From: Salinivenus sp.
Lineage (GTDB): Bacteria; Bacteroidota; Rhodothermia; Rhodothermales; Salinibacteraceae
NCBI GenBank assembly: GCA_018609755.1
Contig: JAHENZ010000228.1
Span: 1 to 54,073 of the forward strand
DNA length: 54,073 nucleotides
Reading direction: 5' to 3'
Position 1 is the stretch's first letter. Each line of letters opens with the position of its first letter. Below are positions 5,599 to 44,578 of this stretch, in pieces. The position numbers and the translations under genes were made by a program. The notes under the pieces are model-generated. The model was not told the origin of the DNA and did not search any database. It saw only the letters and a program-made list of their open reading frames with translations.

Positions 5599-5684
5599 CT
5601 AGTGACCTTGCACAACTACTCTGGCGGTTTCGAGCGTCGGTCACCTGACGTCACAATCGTCAGCGTTTGCTAGTAGCGGTCGAT
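5599..5684 (-). repeat. 86-bp dispersed repeat, copy 1 (inverted relative to copy 2)
   Basis: The reverse complement of this stretch matches 44493-44578 over 86 bp without gaps, with 8 mismatches counted by eye (about 91 percent). Similarity stops abruptly on both sides in both copies, so this is a discrete unit. It lies just downstream of the protease stop. No terminal inverted repeats and no ORF were seen. Confidence 0.85.
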
Positions 5685-5687
5685 CAG

Positions 5688-5716
5688 GTGGCGCCGTTGG
5701 AATCCAACGGCGCCAC
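5688..5716. terminator. Strong 13-bp stem-loop in a convergent intergenic region
   Basis: Perfect inverted repeat GTGGCGCCGTTGG with loop AAT and the exact complementary arm. It lies 128 bp past the protease stop and 159 bp past the tyrS stop, a natural place for a bidirectional terminator. There is no clear T-run on either strand, so intrinsic termination is uncertain. Confidence 0.5.
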
Positions 5717-24032: not shown

Positions 24033-24609
24033 TCGACGGGACGTAACCTGGAACGGAATGTGGCGAAACGACGAAGCAAACCCGCGCGGGAGACGCAAGC
24101 GGGAGACGAACCGCGCAGCAGTTCGTCGGAGAGGGTCTGATCGTCTGATTTCAATTCTTTCGCGCGCCCCTAGTTCGTGCCGATCTGTGAGAAAGTGTGT
24201 GAATCGCCCGGTGGTCGCGCCCGATTCTTCCCTTTTGATCTACACCCACCGGCGAACGAAGGCACGCGCTGCGCGCAGAACCCGTGTACTTTGTTGATCG
24301 CTCCGCGGTCCTGCAGGCTTGTGCATCCATTGCCCTTTTGAAGGACGGGGGAGCGTTGAGTACCGATGGGAGGCAACAAATCTGCCATCGTCACGTCGTT
24401 GCCAAACTAGTGGTGCGTCAAGTTTTCCATGTCGAGTAAAGCCCCGATCAATGAACGGTATCCAGGCCGTTGAAGTGACATTCAAGCGGGTGTATTCAAT
24501 TCGGCACCCGACACCTTCGGCTTGACTGACCACTAGCATCGTGTGACATTTAAATAGCCTCCCAGTATTGTTTATCGCTGGTGTTTCGCCCTCTTCTACG
24601 GCTTCTGAC
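24033..24609. other. Intergenic region between divergent polA and HAD phosphatase genes
   Basis: About 577 bp with no gene. It contains the CTAG-flanked inverted-repeat element at 24407-24536. The remainder (24033-24406) shows nothing beyond presumed promoters. Confidence 0.5.
24407..24536. mobile_element. Small MITE-like element with CTAG target duplication
   Basis: CTAG at 24407-24410 and 24533-24536 flanks a 122-bp unit. Its ends, TGGTGCGTCAAG and CTTGACTGACCA, are inverted repeats matching at 10 of 12 positions. CTAG fits the 4-bp YTAR duplication of the IS5 subgroup. No ORF inside. The ends are less perfect than in the 14051 element, so it may be older. Confidence 0.5.
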
Positions 24610-44398: not shown

Positions 44399-44492
44399 CG
44401 TTCCCTAGTGGGCTTGTACAACTGAAACGCGAGACATCGCAGAGATCGTGACGCTGTTTCTGTCTGTACCTCCTGCGCGGAATCTGCTCGGA

Positions 44493-44578
44493 ATCGACCG
44501 CTGCTAGCAAACGCCGACGATTGTGGCGTCAGGGGACCGACGCTCGAACACGCCAGAGTCGTTGTGCAAGGTCACTGG
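44493..44578 (+). repeat. 86-bp dispersed repeat, copy 2
   Basis: Matches the reverse complement of 5599-5684 with 8 mismatches and no gaps. It ends 40 bp before the TonB receptor ATG, so it would lie in or near its 5' leader. Confidence 0.85.

Follow-up and report, generated by a model that had tools for sequence, protein, structure and literature searches.

A 174-bp, CTAG-ended MITE family, apparently undescribed so far, in a Salinivenus genome

The stretch of DNA analysed here (the window) comprises 54,073 nucleotides of a Salinivenus sp. genome (contig JAHENZ010000228.1). Between a gene for a secreted trypsin-like protease with fn3 domains and an opposite-strand gene for a tyrosyl/tryptophanyl-type tRNA synthetase lies a repeat that begins at position 5599. 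A second copy, at 44405-44578, stops some 40 bp upstream of the probable ATG (44619) of a gene assigned by Pfam to a TonB-dependent receptor, and it may affect or have altered the leader of that gene. Together they form an inverted pair (5601-5684 and 44493-44576; 84 nt, 92% complementary, 38.8 kb apart), which is the longest and best inverted pair within the window. An earlier note on this DNA had described an 86-bp repeat in two opposite-orientation copies. This observation is borne out (84 nt, 92% identical) yet incomplete, as the 86 bp make up no more than the left portion of an element 174 bp long. The window contains these copies and ends:

5599..5685, plus strand: right-truncated copy, element positions 1-87 only, with the left end CTAGTGACCTTGCACAAC intact and the right half missing
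44405..44578, minus strand: complete MITE copy, 174 bp including the terminal CTAG/CCAG, with its left end at 44578 and its right end at 44405
44561..44578, minus strand: left terminal inverted repeat of the complete copy, CCAGTGACCTTGCACAAC (consensus CTAGTGACCTTGCACAAC)
44405..44422, plus strand: right terminal inverted repeat of the complete copy, CTAGTGGGCTTGTACAAC (consensus CTAGTGGGCTTGCACAAC)

Directly 3' of the truncated copy, at 5687-5716, lies a near-perfect palindrome, GGTGGCGCCGTTGGAATCCAACGGCGCCACG. The congener G009 has similar palindromes at three sites, and this type of palindrome is perhaps a dispersed terminator-like repeat.

Alignment of the copies with their flanks gave a full element of 174 bp, with the terminal CTAGs counted. 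The left end CTAGTGACC is common to all copies, and nearly all extend past the 86-bp unit to a right end at CGCGTTTCAGTTGTGCAAGCCCACTAG; the part beyond that unit, 87-88 bp long, is present in the 44493 copy, where it reaches 44405, and in some 60 others. Of the two sharp ends described earlier, the CTAG end therefore stands, whereas the other is the point (about 5685) at which the 5599 copy breaks off. Once the right half is included, imperfect terminal inverted repeats of about 18 bp become visible, the consensus left end CTAGTGACCTTGCACAAC and the right end, read from the opposite side, CTAGTGGGCTTGCACAAC showing 2 differences in 18. The statement that the repeat has no terminal inverted repeats is thus wrong for the whole element; the ends were missed because a complete copy was set against half of one. 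The absence of an ORF was in substance correctly noted, the longest open frame being about 57 codons without gene-like features, and at 174 bp the element is well within the length (under about 600 bp) of a MITE without a gene-like ORF.

Some copies carry a 15-bp internal duplication, and a variant subfamily (L109-L112, L067 and L125) has the ends of the element around a largely unrelated interior. Such different interiors under shared ends are as predicted if a transposase recognizes the ends. A nested insert of about 100 bp, bounded by inverted ends of its own (ACCGATCCGTGA), was seen at L024, L051, L015, L127, L107, L070 and L129 in G000, the window's own genome, and at L034 in the congener G008. 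Its position in the element is exactly the same in the copies of both species, so the composite seems to have been propagated as one unit, or else predates the split of the species.

The genome G000 is a draft of 5.02 Mb in 328 contigs. A search of the whole genome, for which the copy at 5.6 kb plus flanking sequence served as query, found at least 39 further copies (90-95% identity, E 1e-26 to 1e-35) among the 40 of 165 candidates that were scored, far beyond chance. Allowing up to 2 mismatches, the end pattern TAGTGRSCTTGCACAACT was matched 188 times, against once for a reversed-pattern control; with up to 1 mismatch it was matched 147 times. The family comprises about 90-100 copies in G000, and the 188 ends and 60 aligned full-length copies represent the many dispersed copies of one length that are typical of a MITE. 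These 60 copies differ from their consensus by a median of 6% and from each other by a mean of 11%, and conservation is even throughout the element; a neutral burst would be expected to give this pattern.

Outside G000 the family is rare. Among 99 relatives searched, G008 alone has copies (about 81% identity), and an end search across the order, in 113 other genomes, gave four near-exact ends in G008 and, in G035, a lone end that continues into unrelated sequence; only one congener among the 113 clearly has the family. In G000, copy L105 is similar to the G008 subfamily, so the family is probably older than the divergence of these species, or else it has moved between them. The family was not found among the plasmids of PLSDB or the phages of INPHARED. 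Matches to the 18-bp end pattern in GTDB genomes (eight) and in IMG/VR (four) were single ends with unrelated continuations and were attributed to chance, except for one congener MAG (L097). The earlier suggestion of a new dispersed repeat was correct, as this high-copy family has no match in Rfam, PLSDB or INPHARED. A literature search found no description of it, and the family appears to be undescribed so far, although ordinary in kind.

Evidence for insertion comes from a nitroreductase gene of G000 (L028, contig C132) in which one copy resides. Joining the flanks of this copy at one CTAG gives a continuous frame (...AIRTAGTAPSGANRQPWQFV...). The same gene is also broken by a second, unrelated MITE with ends CTAGCAGGCTGTTGCGCA, and when both MITEs are removed, each join being made at a single CTAG, one unbroken nitroreductase frame results. 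The orthologues in the congeners G009 (88%) and G005 (73%) are uninterrupted, which provides empty sites, and restoration of the frame at a single CTAG indicates duplication of the target. For the window's own copies the comparison is less direct: an orthologous junction for the 44405-44578 copy was not found in G009 or G005, while the 5599 copy lies in extra sequence relative to G009, in which just a few tens of bp separate the two adjacent genes and the junction is unalignable.

The target motif was further defined from 74 copies whose flanks could be read at both ends. Most of them lie between two CTAGs, and three lie between two CTACs. The last base is concordant between the flanks (Fisher P 0.001, a guide only, as the 74 copies are not wholly independent), and the first base of CTAG is not. 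The CTAC/CTAC pairs suggest that the duplication probably takes in the base after TA, and with the first base non-concordant, 3 bp (TAG or TAC) fits slightly better than 4. The insertion target is CTAG, occasionally CTAC, with a probable duplication of 3-4 bp.

The earlier note held that the repeat was not a standard MITE. This view is contradicted by the inverted ends, the CTAG targets, the interrupted gene and the empty sites in congeners, which, with the copy number, place the element among MITEs. We are confident that the repeat represents the left half of a 174-bp non-autonomous DNA transposon of the MITE type, presumably moved in trans by a DDE-type transposase. Such an enzyme, supplied in trans, would recognize the terminal inverted repeats of about 18 bp and insert the element at CTAG (occasionally CTAC), doubling TAG/TAC or the whole CTAG. 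The element would have amplified in this manner to about 90-100 copies in the species, after which the 5599 copy would have lost its right half while that at 44405-44578 stayed complete.

We infer that the transposase acting on these ends is IS5-like rather than IS630-like; the former is favoured and the latter possible. The search for an autonomous partner covered loci of the DDE_Tnp_1, DDE_3, DDE_5 and DUF4096 types, together with end patterns. No transposase gene bounded by the element's ends was found in the 328-contig draft of G000 or in relatives, and membership of a known IS was rejected, as the ends matched none of these loci. In particular, the IS5-type loci of the genus have ends that differ from those of the element, and the DDE_3 loci of G000 lack the element's ends. 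The element is accordingly classed as a MITE and not as an IS5 or IS630 derivative. An autonomous partner, if present, would be a transposase ORF between inverted TGRSCTTGCACAAC ends. The target duplication of IS5 is YTAR (PMC10359306), whereas the flanks here are mostly CTAG with some CTAC, and their first base is not concordant.

The best-surviving alternative concerns the mobilizing enzyme and not the nature of the element. In this reading, the MITE would be moved specifically by a transposase of the IS630/Tc1-mariner type, which cuts CTAG at its TA and doubles these two bases only. A preference of IS630 for TA within CTAG is reported, as worded in a title in the reference list of PMC2170065; the non-concordant first base fits a duplication shorter than 4 bp, and three DDE_3 loci are present in G000. 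However, CTAC on both sides of three copies argues against a duplication confined to TA, since the following base also seems to be duplicated, and those DDE_3 loci do not share the element's ends. An enzyme of this kind is therefore possible but rather unlikely, and an IS5-like transposase is preferred.

G000 also contains no fewer than three further MITE families that end in CTAG (C, D and E). One copy of family D lies in the window:

24408..24535, strand not assigned: family D MITE, 128 bp, CTAG-type, ends TAGTGGTGCGTCAAG / TAGTGGTCAGTCAAG, unrelated to the 174-bp family

At up to 1 mismatch, family D ends number 150 in G000, 30 in G009 and 11 in G008, and copies of this family are often found inserted directly at a CTAG end of the 174-bp family (e.g. 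L011, L062, L102, L125 and L138). Family C (ends CTAGCAGGCTGTTGCGCA / CTAGCAACCTGTTGCGCA, about 167 bp) supplies the second MITE in the nitroreductase gene (L028) and was also seen at L023, L024, L058 and, in G008, L155. Family E is a CTAG-ended repeat (CTAGTGGACCGTTACA / CTAGTGGACTGTTACA, about 200-400 bp between ends) adjoining copies of the 174-bp family at L008, L009, L042, L070 and L135. These unrelated families are often inserted at one another's ends. That a common transposase, whose requirements hardly go beyond CTAG and some neighbouring bases, serves the 174-bp family and families C, D and E is a speculative and doubtful proposal. If it were true, each insertion would create new landing sites, and elements would cluster.

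A dispersed small-RNA gene or a regulatory binding-site unit, both raised in the earlier note, is very improbable. The consensus folds more stably than shuffled sequences (z about -3.5), and the window copies are intergenic; however, part of this stability comes from the inverted ends. Covariance folding, which the earlier note had suggested, gave no support for an RNA gene: in an alignment of 16 copies, G008 relatives included, the covariation term was unfavourable (+1.08 kcal/mol) and variation at paired sites was mostly one-sided. There is no Rfam match either, conservation is flat along the element, one copy breaks a coding gene, and congeners nearly lack the repeat. The element thus belongs to a known kind, of which it forms a new family, and is not a small-RNA gene. 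Just as improbable is the reading of the repeat as a lone remnant or degenerate end of some larger, known insertion sequence. In favour of it, the 5599 copy is a fragment and the inverted ends resemble those of an IS. The refuting condition of the earlier note, a larger known IS, is half borne out: the repeat does belong to a larger transposable element, but not to an IS that could be identified. No 1-2 kb element with such ends was found, and the same 174-bp length with both ends in sixty copies mostly refutes this reading.

Overall, about 16-17 kb of G000 is mobile non-coding DNA of this MITE family, which accounts for at least one gene disruption (nitroreductase) and could be used as a strain marker. 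The case also illustrates that a truncated MITE set against a complete one can pass for a novel repeat without ends.

Among known systems, the IS5 family is similar in that the element's CTAG fits YTAR and several IS5-type (DUF4096/DDE_Tnp_1) elements of the genus sit between CTAG sites. It differs in that the present element has no transposase, and the ends of the genus IS5-type elements (CTAGGCACTGTTTGA, CTAGGTCGTACTGAC) have little beyond CTAG in common with it. IS630/Tc1-mariner elements and their MITEs (ISY100, PMC2170065) are comparable for the CTAG preference in that cited title, whereas duplication there is of TA only and the CTAC/CTAC pairs suggest 3-4 bp here; the DDE_3 loci of G000 likewise differ at their ends. 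Of the MITEs known from halophilic prokaryotes, the five families of Haloquadratum walsbyi (PMC3119063) are likened to this one by their described features, not by sequence, and they belong to an archaeal host, whereas the host here is a bacterium; in that paper, CTAG is named only as an avoided tetranucleotide. They too are short, non-coding and of high copy number, with inverted ends and a transposase acting in trans, and some of them also have no intact matching transposase in the genome (PMC3119063).
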